64,000 bases of DNA, from NCBI GenBank assembly GCA_005881435.1, contig VBHP01000029.1, positions 1 to 64,000 of the forward strand. The letters run 5' to 3'. The position numbers and the translations under genes were made by a program. This document shows, piece after piece, positions 48,886 to 56,413 of this stretch. The notes below the pieces were generated by a model, which worked only from the letters and a program-made list of their open reading frames with translations, did not search any database and had not been told where the DNA came from. Positions within the stretch are counted from its first letter, which is position 1, and each line of letters begins with the position of its first letter. This DNA comes from Chloroflexota bacterium (GTDB taxonomy: Bacteria > Chloroflexota > Limnocylindria > P2-11E > CF-107).

Positions 48886-50418
48886 ATGGCGACGCGCCCT
48901 ACGATTCGAGCGACCCACGGCCTCGTCGCGAGCGGACATCATCTTGCGACCACCGCCGGCGTCGAGGCACTGCGCGACGGTGGCAACGCGTTCGACGCCG
49001 CGGTGACGGCTGCAGCGGTGTGCGCCGTGGTGCTGCCGGCGCGGACGTCGATCGGAGGCGATCTCTTCGCCCTCGTGCACGACGCCCGCAGCCGCACGAC
49101 CACGGCGTTCAACGGCAGCGGCCGATCGCCGAAGCGATTGAGCGCCGACGGCTTTCCCGACGGGTTTCCCGAGCGCGGCCCGCAGCTGCTCACGGTCCCG
49201 GGGGTGCTCGCCGCCTGGTCCGAGCTCCTCTCGCGGCATGGCACGTTCGATCTCACGCGCGCGCTGGATCCGGCGATCCGCTACGCCGAGGAGGGCTTCC
49301 CGGTCAGCGACGTCCTGGCGGCCGGCATCGCGGCGCACCGCGACGTGCTTTCCGCCGATCCGGGCTGCGCCGCCACCTTCCTTCCGCGTGGACGCGCGCC
49401 GCGTCCGGGCGAAGTGCTGACACAGCCGGATCTGGCGCGTTCACTTCAGCTCGTCGCCGAGCACGGCGCCGAGGTCTTCTATCGCGGCGAGCTGGGCGAG
49501 CGCTTCATCGCGGCGATCCAGGAGGCCGGCGGCGTGCTCGGCCTCGACGACCTCGCCGCGCACGACACCGTCATCCGAGAGCCACTGGTGCTCGAGTACC
49601 GCGGCCTGCGCGTGCACGGCCAGCCGCCGATCTCTCAGGGTCACGTGCTGCTGGAGGAGCTCGCCATCGCCGCGCAGGATGACCTTCGCGAGATGGGCTG
49701 GGGGAGCGCGGATCTGGTGCACCTCATGGTCGAAGCCAAGAAGCTCGCCTTCGCCGATCGCGACGCGGTCTCAGGCGACGTCCCCGGCTTCGACCCGAAG
49801 CTCCTGATCACGGCCGATCGCGCCGCCGAACGACGGCTGCAGATCGGTGGCAAAGCCGCGGACCACACCACCTATCTCGGTGCCATCGACCGCGACGGCA
49901 ACGCGGTGTCGCTGATCGAAAGCATCTTCTCCGAATTCGGCGCTGGATTCCTGGCGCCGGGGACGGGCATCGTCGCGAACAACCGTCTCACCGGATTTTC
50001 CCTCGAGGCGCGATCGCCGAACGCGTTGGCGCCGGCGAAGCGTCCCGTGCACACCTTGAATACTGTGCTCGTGACCGATGGCGCGAGGCCTCGTTTCATT
50101 TTCGGAACGCCCGGACGCCACGCGCAGGTGCAAACCAATTTCCAGCTCGCGGTCGGGCTCATCGATTTCGAGATGGACGTGCAGGAGGCGATCGACGCGC
50201 CCCGCTGGTACCACGAGCGCGGCAGGCGGCTGCAGGTCGAAGGGCGCTGGCCGGAGGCCGTCCGCCGAGCGCTCGCGGCCCGCGGCCACCAACTCGAGAT
50301 CCTTGCCGATTGGGCGCCGGTGACGGGCGGCGCGCAGGCCATCGCCGTCGATCGCGAGACCGGCGTCTTCAGCGGCGGCGCCGATCCGCGCCGGGAAGGC
50401 TACGCCGCGGGCTACTGA
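48886..50418 (+). CDS. Gamma-glutamyltransferase-family protein
   Basis: HGLVASGHHLATTAGVEALRDGGNAFDAAVTAAAV; DHTTYLGAIDRDGNAVSLIESIFSEFGAG. Confidence 0.9.
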   Translation: MATRPTIRATHGLVASGHHLATTAGVEALRDGGNAFDAAVTAAAVCAVVLPARTSIGGDLFALVHDARSRTTTAFNGSGRSPKRLSADGFPDGFPERGPQLLTVPGVLAAWSELLSRHGTFDLTRALDPAIRYAEEGFPVSDVLAAGIAAHRDVLSADPGCAATFLPRGRAPRPGEVLTQPDLARSLQLVAEHGAEVFYRGELGERFIAAIQEAGGVLGLDDLAAHDTVIREPLVLEYRGLRVHGQPPISQGHVLLEELAIAAQDDLREMGWGSADLVHLMVEAKKLAFADRDAVSGDVPGFDPKLLITADRAAERRLQIGGKAADHTTYLGAIDRDGNAVSLIESIFSEFGAGFLAPGTGIVANNRLTGFSLEARSPNALAPAKRPVHTLNTVLVTDGARPRFIFGTPGRHAQVQTNFQLAVGLIDFEMDVQEAIDAPRWYHERGRRLQVEGRWPEAVRRALAARGHQLEILADWAPVTGGAQAIAVDRETGVFSGGADPRREGYAAGY

Positions 50419-50452
50419 AACCGATCTCGCTGGCGCACCATTAGATGGAGAA

Positions 50453-52549
50453 GTGATGCTGCGACGCTTCGCGCTCGCGTTCGGCGCGCTCCTCGTCGTG
50501 ACGATCGCGTGCGAGGCGCCGGCGCCGAAGCCCGAAGATGCCGCACGCATCTACGCCGACGCGTGGCAGGGCGCGAGCTACACCGCGATGTACGACCTGC
50601 TGACTCCTGCCGCGCAGAAGCGCGTCGCGCGCGACGCGTTCGTGACGCGCTACGGAAATATCGCTGACGAGATGTCGCTGACGGGCGTCGCGGTGACGCC
50701 CGGCCTGGCGACGCCGGAACAGGATGCATCGCAGAAGCCTATCGACGGTCGCGTCGATGTGCCGCTCACGGTGCAGTACCGCACCACAAAGGTCGATCCC
50801 TTCACGCGAACGGTGCCACTCATCCTGGTGCGGCAGCCAGACAAGACCTGGAGGGTCGATTGGACGCCCGAGGCCATCGTCCCGGGCCTCTCCGGCGACC
50901 GGCTGGTCCGGATGACACGGCAAGTGCCGACGCGCGGGCGCATCATCGCCCGCGACGGGTCCGAGCTTGCGACGTTCGGCGACGCCTTCGAGGTCGGCGT
51001 CGTGCCCGGTCAGATCAAGGACGAGGCGGCGATGCTGCAGAGCCTCGCGCCGCTGGTCGGCCTGCCGGAAGCGGAGATCAAGAAGCGCTACGCCAACGGA
51101 CAGCCGGACTGGTTCATGCCGGTTCGGGTCATGCCGCCCGCGACGCCGGCCGACGTGCGTCAGAAGCTCGGCCTCATCGAGGGCGTGCAGCTGCGGCCGG
51201 CGCGGGTGCGGCAATACCCGCAAGGCACGCTCGCTGCGCACGTCATCGGGTACGTCGGCGTGATCACTGTCGAGGAGTTGCAGAAGCTCGGGCCGAAGGG
51301 CTACCAGGACGGCGACCTGGTGGGCAAGACCGGCTTGGAGCAGACGCTCGAAGACGTTCTCGCCGGCACCTTCGGCTGGCGGCTCGGAATCGTCGCGCCG
51401 GATGGCACGCAGACGGCGATCCTCGGTGAGCGCGTGGCGGAACAGGGCCAGGACGTGCAGCTCTCGCTCGACATCACCTTGCAGCGGGCGGCGGAAGCCG
51501 CGCTCGCCCCGGAGCCGAAAGCGGCGGTGGTGGTCGAGGATCTGAATACCGGCGAGATACTCGCCATTGCCTCGCGACCCAGCTTCGATCCGAACGCGTT
51601 CGCCGGCGGCGACGTGGCCACGACCTCGCGGTACCTCACCGACGCGACGCGCCCACTGTTCGATCGCGCCACCTTCGGGCAATACCCGACCGGCTCGTCG
51701 TTCAAGATGATCACGTCGTTCGCCGCGCTCCGAGAGGGCGTGCTGCAACTTGGCGAAAAGGTGCCGTGTCCGGCCGTCTGGACCGGGTACGGCGACAAGT
51801 ACAAGCAGCTCAACCACGAGACCGGCGACCTCGGCCCGATCGATCTTCACACCGCGCTGTCGCGCTCGTGCAACACCTTCTATTACGAGCTCGGAAAGCG
51901 ACTGAACGACAAAGACCAGCACCTGCTGCCGAGCACCGCCAAGTCGTTCGGGCTGGGCAAGGCGACCGACATCGACTACGTCCTCGAGGCCGAGGGCTTC
52001 GTGCCGACGCCGGAGCAGCCGGTGCCCGGCACAGCGGCGGATCGCGTCTGGCTTCCCGGCGACGCGACGAACCTGGCGATCGGGCAGGGGCAGCTGCTTG
52101 CGACACCGCTACAAATGGCGAATTACGTCTCCGCCGTGCTCAACGACGGCACCCTACTCAAACCTCGTCTGGTGCTGAAAATTCAGAAGCGCGACGGGAC
52201 CGTGGTGAAGATGTTCGAGCGCGCCGAGCTGGGCAAGGCGAACACGCGACCTCAGGACTTCGCCGCGGTACGCGACGGCATGCGCGGCGTCGTCGCCGAC
52301 CGCGACGGCACCGCATATTTCCCGTTCCTGGGCTTTTCCGTGCCGGTGCTCGGGAAATCCGGTACCGCCGAGACCGCCGTCGGCAAGCCGGATGGCTGGT
52401 TCATCGCTGGCGCGCCCTACGGCACTCCCACAGTGGCGGTCGCAGCCCTCGCGGAGGAAGTGATCGAACGGCCGGGAACGTTCGCCTCGGTGAACTCCGC
52501 CGCGATCGCCCGCAAGACGCTCGCTGCGGCGCTGCACGTGTCGCCCTGA
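50453..52549 (+). CDS. Penicillin-binding protein, MecA_N/PBP2-like transpeptidase
   Basis: Lipobox-like signal, NTF2/MecA_N-like domain, SxxK (GSSFKMI), SCN, KSGT motifs. Confidence 0.9.
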   Translation: MMLRRFALAFGALLVVTIACEAPAPKPEDAARIYADAWQGASYTAMYDLLTPAAQKRVARDAFVTRYGNIADEMSLTGVAVTPGLATPEQDASQKPIDGRVDVPLTVQYRTTKVDPFTRTVPLILVRQPDKTWRVDWTPEAIVPGLSGDRLVRMTRQVPTRGRIIARDGSELATFGDAFEVGVVPGQIKDEAAMLQSLAPLVGLPEAEIKKRYANGQPDWFMPVRVMPPATPADVRQKLGLIEGVQLRPARVRQYPQGTLAAHVIGYVGVITVEELQKLGPKGYQDGDLVGKTGLEQTLEDVLAGTFGWRLGIVAPDGTQTAILGERVAEQGQDVQLSLDITLQRAAEAALAPEPKAAVVVEDLNTGEILAIASRPSFDPNAFAGGDVATTSRYLTDATRPLFDRATFGQYPTGSSFKMITSFAALREGVLQLGEKVPCPAVWTGYGDKYKQLNHETGDLGPIDLHTALSRSCNTFYYELGKRLNDKDQHLLPSTAKSFGLGKATDIDYVLEAEGFVPTPEQPVPGTAADRVWLPGDATNLAIGQGQLLATPLQMANYVSAVLNDGTLLKPRLVLKIQKRDGTVVKMFERAELGKANTRPQDFAAVRDGMRGVVADRDGTAYFPFLGFSVPVLGKSGTAETAVGKPDGWFIAGAPYGTPTVAVAALAEEVIERPGTFASVNSAAIARKTLAAALHVSP

Positions 52550-52563
52550 TCCTCGAGCGAGCG

Positions 52564-52593
52564 TTGACTGACGCCGGAGCGGGCCGTTAGAGT
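52564..52593 (+). promoter_or_regulatory. Candidate sigma70-type promoter for greA leader
   Basis: TTGACT (52564-52569), 18-nt spacer, TAGAGT (52588-52593). Confidence 0.5.
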
Positions 52594-52620
52594 ACCTGGG
52601 ACAGAACGGCTTCATGAGTG

Positions 52621-52652
52621 CTGAGGGCGCCAGCCTTCAGTGCTTTTATTTT
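52621..52652 (+). terminator. Intrinsic terminator/attenuator in greA leader
   Basis: CTGAGGGC-gcca-GCCTTCAG stem followed by TGCTTTTATTTT. Confidence 0.65.
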
Positions 52653-52678
52653 CTGAAAGCAGCGTTCTAGAGGTACAA

Positions 52679-52704
52679 GGCACGGCCCGCTTTTTGGGCG
52701 TGCC
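52679..52704 (+). other. Leader hairpin immediately upstream of greA RBS
   Basis: GGCACGGCCC-gcttttt-GGGCGTGCC (one bulge), adjacent to gggagg. Confidence 0.5.
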
Positions 52705-52718
52705 GGGAGGTTCTCGAG

Positions 52719-53186
52719 ATGGCGACAGACAAGCCCGTCTACGTGTCCGCCGAAGGGCTCGCGAAGCTCGAGGAAGAGCTCGAGCACCTGCGCACCGAGC
52801 GCCGCAAGGAAGTCGCCGAGCGTATCCACTCGGCCATGGAATTCGGCGACTACTCCGAAAACTCGGAGCTCGAGGACGCCAAGAACGAGCAGGCGTTCAT
52901 GGAAGGTCGCATCTTGACCCTCGAGCAGATGCTCAAGAACGCTGTCGTCATCGATCAGAACGGTCATCACGACAAGGTCGAGCTGGGAAGTCACATCGTC
53001 GTCGAGGTCGACGGCGAGCGTGAGAACTACACCGTTGTCGGATCGGCCGAAGCCAATCCGGCTGAGGGTCGTATCAGCAACGAGTCGCCGGTCGGTCGCG
53101 CCTTGCTCGGGCATCGCGCCGGCGACAAGGTCCGAGCGGTCGTCCCGGCAGGAGAGATAGATATGAAGATCGTGGCGGTGCGATAG
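52719..53186 (+). CDS. greA: Transcription elongation factor GreA
   Basis: SAEGLAKLEEELEHLRTERRKEVAERIHSAMEFGDYSENSELEDAKNEQAFMEGRI. Confidence 0.96.
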   Translation: MATDKPVYVSAEGLAKLEEELEHLRTERRKEVAERIHSAMEFGDYSENSELEDAKNEQAFMEGRILTLEQMLKNAVVIDQNGHHDKVELGSHIVVEVDGERENYTVVGSAEANPAEGRISNESPVGRALLGHRAGDKVRAVVPAGEIDMKIVAVR

Positions 53187-53189
53187 ACG

Positions 53190-54758
53190 GTGTTCTGGGC
53201 GGACGAGCTCGCGCGGCATGTGCCGCCGGGCCAGCCGCAGGTGGTGAACGATTCGAAGACGCCATCCGGAAGCATTCCGATCAGCAGCCTGCGCGGCCCG
53301 ATCATTCACGACGCCATCACCCGTGCCTTACGCGCGGCCGGGGTCACCGCGACGTTCCTCTATGGCAGCGACGACGTGGATCCGATGGACAGTCAGTCGA
53401 TGAAGACGGATGCGGCCATCGCGCCGCATATGGGGAAGCCGCTGTACGCGATCCCGGCGCCGGAAGCTGGCGGCACCGACTTTGCCGATCTGTACACGAA
53501 CCGTTTCCTGTCGTCGTTCCCGGAGTTGGGGCTGCATCCCGACCAGCTGTATCGCATGCGCGATCTGTATCGCGACGGCAAGCTCGACGCGTCGATCGAC
53601 CTGGCGCTGCGCAACGCCGACGTGGCCCGCGAAGTGCTTGCGCGCGTCGCGAAGGTGAACAAGGACGCGGGCTACTTTCCGCTGCATGTCATCTGTGAGA
53701 ACTGCGGGCGTATCGGCACGACGAGGGTCACGTCGTACGACGGTCGAGAAGTCACCTACGAATGCCGCAAGGATCTGGTGTCCTGGGCCGAGGGCTGCGG
53801 TCACTCCGGGAAGACATCGCCGTTCGGCGGCCGCGCGAAGCTCCCGTGGAACTTCGAATGGTGCGCGCAGTGGGATGTGTTCGGCGTGACCATCGAGGGC
53901 TGCGGCAAGGACCTGGCGACCGCCGGCGGCTCGCGCGACCGTTCCGACGAGTTGTTCCGCGCGATCTGGAAGAAGGAGCCGCCGATCCGGGTGACATATG
54001 AGTTCGTCACCGTCGCCGGAAAGAAGATGTCGACCTCACACGCGGAGGCCTGGCGTCACCTCGGCGCCGCCGCGCATGAGATCGTGGAGCTGCTGACCGG
54101 CGAGATCGTTCGCTTTCTGATGCTCCGCACGCGGCCGTCGTCGACGATCGAGTTCGATCCCAGTGGGGACCGCATCCCAAAGCTGTTCGACGAGTACGAC
54201 CGCGCGCAAGATGCGTATCTGAACGATCCCGCCAGTGATCTCGGCCGCATCTACGCCATGTCGCAGCTGTCCACGAAGGTGCAGACGGGGTTTCGGGTGC
54301 CATTCGGCCTGCTGGCGAATTGGCTGCAGATGCCGCATCTGGATCCGAAGGCGCAGGCCGAGCAGCTCGTGGGCCGCAAGCTGACCGACTGGGAGACGAA
54401 TGAGCTGGCCCGTCGCATCGCCGTCGCGCGCGTGTGGCTGGAACGGTGGGCGCCGGAGCAGGCTCGCTTCAGCGTCGCCACCGCTCTCCCGGAGGCGGCG
54501 CACGAGCTCAACGAGCGCCAACGCGAGCTGCTGCGGCGGCTGATGCCGTTCGTCGGGGACTCCCTCGGTGCGGAGGAGCTTCAGGCGAAGATCTACGAGC
54601 TGAGCCGCGAGCTCGGCATCGAGTCGAACGCGGTCGCATTCGCCGCCGTGTACCTCGCGTTCATCGGAAAGCCGCATGGTCCGCACGCCGGCCGACTCCT
54701 GGCGTCGCAGAATCGCGAGTTCGTCCGCCGGCGCCTGGAGGAGGCGGCGCGCGCATGA
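53190..54758 (+). CDS. lysK: Class I lysyl-tRNA synthetase
   Basis: PSGSIPISSLRGPIIHDAI; zinc-like CENCGRIG…C…C; KKMSTSHAEAW (KMSKS-like). Confidence 0.92.
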   Translation: MFWADELARHVPPGQPQVVNDSKTPSGSIPISSLRGPIIHDAITRALRAAGVTATFLYGSDDVDPMDSQSMKTDAAIAPHMGKPLYAIPAPEAGGTDFADLYTNRFLSSFPELGLHPDQLYRMRDLYRDGKLDASIDLALRNADVAREVLARVAKVNKDAGYFPLHVICENCGRIGTTRVTSYDGREVTYECRKDLVSWAEGCGHSGKTSPFGGRAKLPWNFEWCAQWDVFGVTIEGCGKDLATAGGSRDRSDELFRAIWKKEPPIRVTYEFVTVAGKKMSTSHAEAWRHLGAAAHEIVELLTGEIVRFLMLRTRPSSTIEFDPSGDRIPKLFDEYDRAQDAYLNDPASDLGRIYAMSQLSTKVQTGFRVPFGLLANWLQMPHLDPKAQAEQLVGRKLTDWETNELARRIAVARVWLERWAPEQARFSVATALPEAAHELNERQRELLRRLMPFVGDSLGAEELQAKIYELSRELGIESNAVAFAAVYLAFIGKPHGPHAGRLLASQNREFVRRRLEEAARA

Positions 54759-56413
54759 ACGGACAACTGGCGGTCGCGATCGTCTGGCACATGCACCAGC
54801 CGTACTACCGCCATCCCCAGACCAGCGAGGTCGTCCTGCCGTGGGTGCGCCTGCACGCGGCGAAGGACTACCTGCACATGGCGCGGCTGCTTCACGAGTT
54901 CCCCAATGTGAAGGTGAACTTCACTCTCGTCCCCGCGCTGCACGATCAGCTCGAGGAGGTCGCGCGCGGCGAGGACGATGCCGACGCCCGCCTGACGTTG
55001 CGGTCGGGCGACGGCGGCCTTTCGGTCGACGATCGCTTGCACCTGCTGCGGCGCTTCTTCTCCATCTCGCATCAGCGGGTCGTGCACCGCATCCCGGACT
55101 ACGCGCGACTGCACAACCTGCGCATGGCGGCCGGCGACCGCCCCGACCTGCTCTCGAGCTCCTACTTCCGCGACCTCGCGGCCTGGTTCAACCTGGCCTG
55201 GATCGATCCGGAGCTCCTTACCATCGACGACCGTCTGGTGCGCCTGCGCGATCGCGGGCGGAACTTCTCGCGCGACGACCTCCAGTACATCCTGTCGCGA
55301 CACCGCAACATGGCGTCCGGTGTGGTGCGGCTATACCACCGTCTGCAGAAAGCGGGTCAGATCGAGGTCGTCACGGTACCGGCGTATCACCCGATCCTGC
55401 CGTTGATCATCGATTCCGACGTGGCGCGGCACTCGGACCCGAACGCGGTCCTGCCACAGCCGCCGTTCCGCTGGCCCGAGGATGCCGCGGCACACGTCGA
55501 CGACGCCGTGCGGCAGTACGAGCAGGTCTTCGATCACAAGCCGACGGGGCTCTGGCCGGCCGAGGGCGCGGTCAGTCCCGAGGCCGCGGACATCATCGCC
55601 AAGCGCGGCATCCGGTGGTTCGCGACGGACGAGGGCATCCTCGCGAATTCGATCGGCGCTCAGATCTGGCGCGACGACGTCGGTGCGCTGACCGACCCGG
55701 CGCTGCTCTATCGCCCCTACCGCCTGGCGAATGGGATGAGCGTGATCTTCCGCGACCGCGAGCTCTCGGATCGCATCGGGTTCGCCTACGGCCACATGAA
55801 TCCCGCCGATGCCGTCGGCGAAATGATCGCGCGGCTCGCGCGGGCTCGCGATCGATTGTCCGACGGTGGCGGACCGTACCTGGCCTCGATCATCCTCGAC
55901 GGCGAGAACGCCTGGGAGGGCTACTCCAACAACGGCAACGAGTTTTTGCGCGCGCTGTACGGCGCGCTGAACGCGGATCAGCGGTTCGTCACCGTGCGCG
56001 TCTCGGAGTTCCTGGAGCAGAATCCGGCGCAGGTCGAGCTGCCACGGCTCCACTCGGGCTCGTGGATCGACGCTAACTACCGCGTGTGGATCGGCGAGGA
56101 GGGACATCTGCGCGCCTGGAATCTGCTCGGGCGTACCCGCGCTTTCGCCGCCGAGCAGTGGGGCGCGTTGGGCGAGATGCCCGCGAACGTCGCGCGGGCG
56201 TTGATGGTCGCGCAAGGCAGCGACTGGTTCTGGTGGTACAGCTCGCGAAATTCCAGCCCCGAGGATCTCGTCTTCGACGAGCTGTTCCGCGCCAACCTCG
56301 AGGTGGTGTGGTGGTGGGGCGGCACCGAGCCTCCCGCGGAGCTCCGCCAGCCGCTGACCGCGCCACAGGTCGCTCCGGTCGGCGGCGCGATGCTGCCCGG
56401 CCGCACCGAATAG
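54755..56413 (+). CDS. Glycoside hydrolase family 57 protein
   Basis: VAIVWHMHQPYYR; GLWPAEGAVSPEAADIIAKRGIRWFATDEGIL; ILDGENAWEGY. Confidence 0.92.
   Translation: MNGQLAVAIVWHMHQPYYRHPQTSEVVLPWVRLHAAKDYLHMARLLHEFPNVKVNFTLVPALHDQLEEVARGEDDADARLTLRSGDGGLSVDDRLHLLRRFFSISHQRVVHRIPDYARLHNLRMAAGDRPDLLSSSYFRDLAAWFNLAWIDPELLTIDDRLVRLRDRGRNFSRDDLQYILSRHRNMASGVVRLYHRLQKAGQIEVVTVPAYHPILPLIIDSDVARHSDPNAVLPQPPFRWPEDAAAHVDDAVRQYEQVFDHKPTGLWPAEGAVSPEAADIIAKRGIRWFATDEGILANSIGAQIWRDDVGALTDPALLYRPYRLANGMSVIFRDRELSDRIGFAYGHMNPADAVGEMIARLARARDRLSDGGGPYLASIILDGENAWEGYSNNGNEFLRALYGALNADQRFVTVRVSEFLEQNPAQVELPRLHSGSWIDANYRVWIGEEGHLRAWNLLGRTRAFAAEQWGALGEMPANVARALMVAQGSDWFWWYSSRNSSPEDLVFDELFRANLEVVWWWGGTEPPAELRQPLTAPQVAPVGGAMLPGRTE

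Follow-up and report, generated by a model that had tools for sequence, protein, structure and literature searches.

The gene for the RNA-polymerase rescue factor GreA in the window (the whole 64,000-nucleotide stretch of Chloroflexota DNA analyzed here, from contig VBHP01000029.1) is preceded by a leader hairpin that very probably works as a built-in switch, related to E. coli GraL in kind and not in sequence. We consider it reasonably probable that this leader serves as a promoter-proximal transcription attenuator of the greA-lysK operon, with Gre-factor activity as its likeliest input. This reading starts from what the comparison establishes, namely a promoter match, a hairpin, its conservation and covariation, its specificity for greA and the need for readthrough in many relatives.

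All features described here lie on the forward strand. The greA gene (52719-53186) encodes a protein of 155 amino acids that was identified by Pfam PF03449/PF01272, NCBIfam GreA and alignment, and that retains the catalytic residues D44/E47, corresponding to D41/E44 of E. coli GreA. It is followed just past its stop codon by lysK (53190-54758; PF01921, TIGR00467), the second gene of the operon, which encodes a class I lysyl-tRNA synthetase (LysRS), and the gene order greA-lysK/lysS is conserved. The LysRS following greA is of class I (lysK) in the order to which the window belongs and of class II (lysS) in most other families bearing the motif, with the same layout. Upstream of greA on the same strand, the window carries a gene for a MecA_N-type penicillin-binding protein (PBP; 50453-52549, stop codon 52547-52549), where the relatives that were checked have a divergent mutY-like gene.

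Between the two genes, direct reading and a consensus scan identified a sigma-70-like promoter, TTGACT-N18-TAGAGT (52564-52593), composed of TTGACT at 52564-52569, a spacer of 18 nt and TAGAGT at 52588-52593. It was the sole promoter-like site in the scan of positions 50000-55000, for which 0.6 matches are expected by chance, so that on sequence alone the promoter is not beyond chance. Comparison with relatives nevertheless supports the putative promoter, since its -10 box aligns with the TACAAT/TATGAT boxes that relatives in the order carry at a comparable distance from the hairpin, which begins 22 nt after the -10 box in the window. The first-pass annotation had given greA a promoter of its own at this site and had predicted a terminated RNA of about 50 nt; the former is borne out by the matching -10 boxes of the relatives, and the latter agrees with the positions of promoter and terminator, which place the predicted transcription start at about 52600 and the predicted leader RNA at 52600-52652.

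The terminator hairpin, the putative attenuator, occupies 52616-52645 and comprises a stem of 13 bp with the arms GAGTGCTGAGGGC and GCCTTCAGTGCTT, a GCCA loop and the core CTGAGGG...CCTTCAG. Its folding energy of -20.8 kcal/mol (z -3.91) was equaled by none of 200 shuffled sequences, and by direct reading it runs into the U-tract TTTTATTTT (52644-52652), whose tail TTATTTT extends to 52652. The early terminator annotated before greA in the first pass is thus present, but its stem is longer than had been stated there. Two covariance models also recovered this hairpin: R1 matched 52590-52653 (E 9.8e-11), its sole match in that genome, and R2, which represents the hairpin shared across the phylum, matched 52605-52651 (E 9.3e-7).

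A second hairpin, likewise predicted in the first pass, is indeed present at 52679-52704 (z -2.33) with the sequence GGCACG(G)CCC...GGGCGTGCC, directly 5' of the Shine-Dalgarno sequence GGGAGG, which it abuts and which is followed by the greA ATG at 52719. Compensatory change was found in only one of its 10 consensus pairs in the best-represented genus, and two members of the order (L014 and L020) have no room for it. Given this poor conservation it was rejected as a conserved part of the device and is regarded as lineage-specific.

Within the order, greA was found in 27 genomes, the window included, in a search of 61 relatives. When R1 was run over 177 genomes of the class, each of the order's 27 genomes with greA had a match immediately upstream of that gene. 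Most of these genomes had also been used to build the model, and the match was mostly the sole strong one per genome; two members of the order without an R1 match also lacked a greA match. Chance is no explanation for a hairpin that recurs in this way. These same-order leaders show a TACAAT, TATGAT or TACACT box followed about 20-40 nt later by GTGCTGAGGGCC...GGCCTTCAGYGCTTTT or a variant of it. In flat 200-nt leaders, a terminator of -12 kcal/mol or below was present in 26 of the 27 same-order greA leaders compared to 25% of shuffled sequences and 15.5% of control genes. At the same threshold and irrespective of the motif, strong terminators were found in 13 of 17 leaders from other families of the class and in 31 of 68 from the rest of the phylum, relative to 15.5% in the controls. 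R1 matches in the other families of the class were weak. A different conserved hairpin occupies the greA leader in several of these families (L029, L030, L107, L115, L114, L116, L117, L120, L130), with the sequence CTTCAGG...CCTGGAG and, immediately after it, either TTCTTTCC or a T-tract, for example TTTTTTGTTA.

Outside the order, the hairpin core CUGAG...CUCAG with its U-tract is found again at greA across Chloroflexota, where GreA identity is about 50%, and further leaders of the phylum, whose GreA proteins are about 50-60% identical to that of the window, carry AACTGAGAGC...GCTCTCAGTTCTTTT and variants at the same place. A loose form of the motif followed by a T-tract occurred 19 times in 87 greA leaders, five of them from the same order, versus three times elsewhere, with 0.04 occurrences expected in the leaders (1.9 Mb surrounding the loci, both strands). 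When R2 was run over 400 genomes of the phylum, the best match reached E<=1e-3 in 69 genomes, and by our own tally 66 of these 69 matches lay upstream of greA on the greA strand; outside the training set, 47 of 50 genomes with a match had it beside greA. The exceptions were G315, G390 and G505, the last with a match inside coding sequence before an elongation-factor-like gene, and weaker matches added greA leaders in G434, G510 and G313. As R2 was built from motif-selected leaders, the Chloroflexota-wide share of the motif has to come from an unselected sample, in which about a fifth of the leaders outside the order carried it; many Chloroflexota families are without it. In a second phylum (that of L035, a Terrabacteria group ANGP1 record; 43 genomes), all three matches at E<=0.02 were greA leaders. 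Among 200 Bacillota genomes, 21 had an R2 match at E<=1e-3 and greA adjoined none of the loci checked (L285-L304). They therefore provide a negative control, in which the family is absent and the model picks up ordinary terminators. Some Clostridia greA leaders (L046, L048, L051, L054, L063, L069) carry early terminator-like hairpins after the -10 box that are unrelated in sequence. A wider regulon was considered and rejected, since the additional R2 matches (G317, G390, G505 and others) resembled ordinary terminators, repeats or coding sequence and shared no common gene set, with a single exception at lysS in G407.

The stem is also supported by covariation. In the unfitted alignment A2, 97.9% of cells were paired and six of the 10 stem pairs showed compensatory change; the covariation score was reached by none of 500 shuffles. 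Within the CUGAG/CUCAG core, two pairs are invariant and the others vary little, partly because the sequences had been chosen by that core. Terminator sequences usually drift, whereas here both arms are conserved, which points to recognition beyond base pairing.

The position of the hairpin relative to promoter and start codon bears on how greA is transcribed. Among 88 distinct motif leaders, an exact TATAAT was found within 75 nt upstream of the hairpin in 48 and one with at most one mismatch in 75, compared to 13% for shuffled sequences, and the median distance from TATAAT to the hairpin was 31 nt. In 13 of the 88 the start codon lies 40 nt or less from the hairpin, with scarcely any space, if any, for a downstream promoter, so that transcription of greA must traverse the terminator in these relatives. 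That greA depends on readthrough, as proposed in the first pass, is supported by a hairpin downstream of the promoter and by these 13 leaders. It is accordingly scarcely credible that the hairpin is simply the terminator of the PBP gene, with the greA promoter located downstream of it. In the window the PBP gene shares the strand of greA and its end lies 66 nt upstream of the stem, as such an arrangement would have it, but relatives carry the hairpin next to a divergent upstream gene and often have too little space for a promoter beyond it. In the three relatives checked, this neighbor is mutY-like (HhH-GPD) and runs on the opposite strand (L186 and L014 by Pfam, L009 by sequence), and the hairpin cannot be the terminator of an upstream transcript there. 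A stem belonging only to the PBP transcript, which the first-pass annotation had named as the case against its reading, is effectively excluded by the divergent upstream genes together with the short distance to the start codon in relatives.

For the attenuator that we propose, RNA polymerase would start at about 52600 and transcribe about 15-20 nt before reaching the hairpin at 52616-52645. Upon formation of the hairpin the complex would stop in the U-tract near 52646-52653 and release a leader RNA about 50 nt long; alternatively, it would read through to produce the greA-lysK mRNA. We infer that termination takes place at this hairpin in vivo and that readthrough is regulated. The most likely target of the input is the elongation complex at the terminator, be it through a Gre factor, NusA or the pause or backtrack state of the polymerase. 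This is suggested by an RNA preceding the hairpin that is short and not conserved between families, in combination with a conserved hairpin. No strong antiterminator was found in the leaders, as pre-terminator folds reached about -6 to -13 kcal/mol versus about -17 to -38 kcal/mol for the longer stretch including the terminator, and alternative pairings such as CUUCA/UGAGG in the window and GCCC/GGGC in relatives are weak. A short, unconserved RNA before the hairpin without a strong alternative fold argues against an aptamer, a T-box or a leader peptide. If E. coli GraL is taken as a guide, Gre-factor activity would be the likeliest input, providing feedback on the Gre level; that Gre activity itself sets the extent of readthrough is a suggestion we make tentatively.

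The motif leader is also found before greA genes whose products have lost the catalytic residues. The GreA next to the leader is devoid of both catalytic acids in about ten genomes (with tips such as EMGGTENNAE, ELRSTVNTPE, ESRSAVNSPE) and of the aspartate in a further three, and all of these genomes except G515 possess a second GreA with both acids intact and without a motif leader. Loci of altered greA1 genes with a motif leader and without the acidic pair are L310, L315, L309, L314, L306, L312, L321, L307, L326 and L318; those of intact greA2 genes without such a leader are L323, L322, L325, L330, L328, L313, L320, L317 and L329. In G407 (L269:1501-3067), a greA-type leader stands directly before lysS and no GreA was found other than one of the second type (L305), an arrangement that looks as if greA1 had been lost from a greA-lysS operon. 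The altered GreA1 tips and the lysS leader of G407 indicate that the leader tracks the greA1-lysRS operon and not the cleavage activity of its product. Since the leader is kept before a tip-less GreA, it is doubtful that those lineages simply reproduce the E. coli loop, and these cases, including the one genome with the leader on lysS alone, speak against strict cleavage-dependent feedback by the operon's own product. This leaves two options, namely control in trans by the intact paralog or an input from some other property of the elongation complex. A more far-reaching proposal, which we regard as doubtful, would make the CUGAG-core terminator an ancient sequence-specific reporter of Gre action on RNA polymerase, common to Chloroflexota and the second phylum; in the tip-less GreA1 lineages, the intact second GreA would act on the leader in trans, a cleavage factor thereby controlling its own non-catalytic competitor for the secondary channel. 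The altered-GreA lineages represent natural mutants in which control by a protein's own cleavage activity could be separated from control by another property of the polymerase.

The same observations have to be weighed against other readings. A constitutive, leaky terminator would permit a fixed low level of readthrough and control the dosage of greA and lysRS without any regulated input, and the lack of a detected antiterminator or aptamer in the leaders as well as the survival of the leader after loss of greA1 or of its tip would fit such a device. For dosage control, however, a stem alone would suffice, yet the CTGAG/CTCAG bases persist between families whose GreA proteins are about 50% identical, and also in the second phylum; moreover, greA expression in E. 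coli responds to GreA via the GraL terminator (PMC6829880), so that we consider a merely leaky terminator rather unlikely. Conservation of the hairpin sequence beyond its structure might instead reflect an RNA-binding protein that recognizes the CUGAG hairpin and controls termination. Since the motif occurs per genome essentially only at greA and defines no regulon, such a regulator would serve a single operon, which renders this explanation quite improbable. It is more improbable still that the released RNA of about 50 nt acts mainly in trans, with a secondary role in cis, because conservation between families does not extend beyond the hairpin; the precedent is E. coli GraL, which is reported to act on the nudE mRNA (PMC6829880). 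Attenuation with an input on the elongation complex therefore remains our preferred reading.

Leaders of operons containing LysRS are also known from T-box and lysine riboswitch systems, which resemble the present one in ending in a terminator, but the Chloroflexota leader is far too short for either, and no match to the T-box, the lysine riboswitch or other known Rfam families was obtained in the leaders tested. Terminator-bearing greA leaders as such are an already known kind (RF01769; PMC2965389). Naville and Gautheret (2010), who describe them for Proteobacteria, bacilli and Clostridia, place greA/rnk seventh in their ranking of families by how often a terminator precedes them, and their attenuators likewise consist of an intrinsic terminator within the greA 5' leader and in the orientation of the gene, which here lies downstream of a promoter. 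They report a clear antiterminator in each case, in contrast to the weak alternatives of the Chloroflexota leaders, and the accessible text neither names Chloroflexota among the lineages nor describes a hairpin sequence family spanning phyla (PMC2965389). No report of a Chloroflexota greA attenuator was found in the literature searched; relative to that literature, what is new is a family of Chloroflexota leaders that has a conserved hairpin of its own, extends into a second phylum and persists where the GreA protein is altered.

The closest known counterpart is the greA leader of E. coli, where GreA represses its own expression via GraL in cis, an effect seen only in vivo and requiring catalytic GreA, as the D41A variant fails (PMC6829880). 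As far as the literature searched shows, control of the GreA level has been worked out in detail for E. coli alone, where one factor is still missing (PMC6829880). The Chloroflexota leaders, which have the same layout with an unrelated sequence over much of one phylum and in another, offer an independent system in which to ask whether promoter-proximal termination generally controls Gre factors. The E. coli hairpin CTGACCTGGG...CCCGGGTCGG is unlike that of Chloroflexota, and RF01769, the Enterobacteria greA leader, scored 127.5 bits in the E. coli control but had no match in the window or in six further leaders, in agreement with the earlier judgment that the sequences are unrelated. The operon differs as well, being greA-lysK/lysS in Chloroflexota. 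The likeness thus lies in the arrangement, which in both cases comprises a promoter of its own, a hairpin about 23 nt after the -10 box (22 nt in the window), a U-tract and, as predicted for Chloroflexota, termination before greA (PMC6829880).
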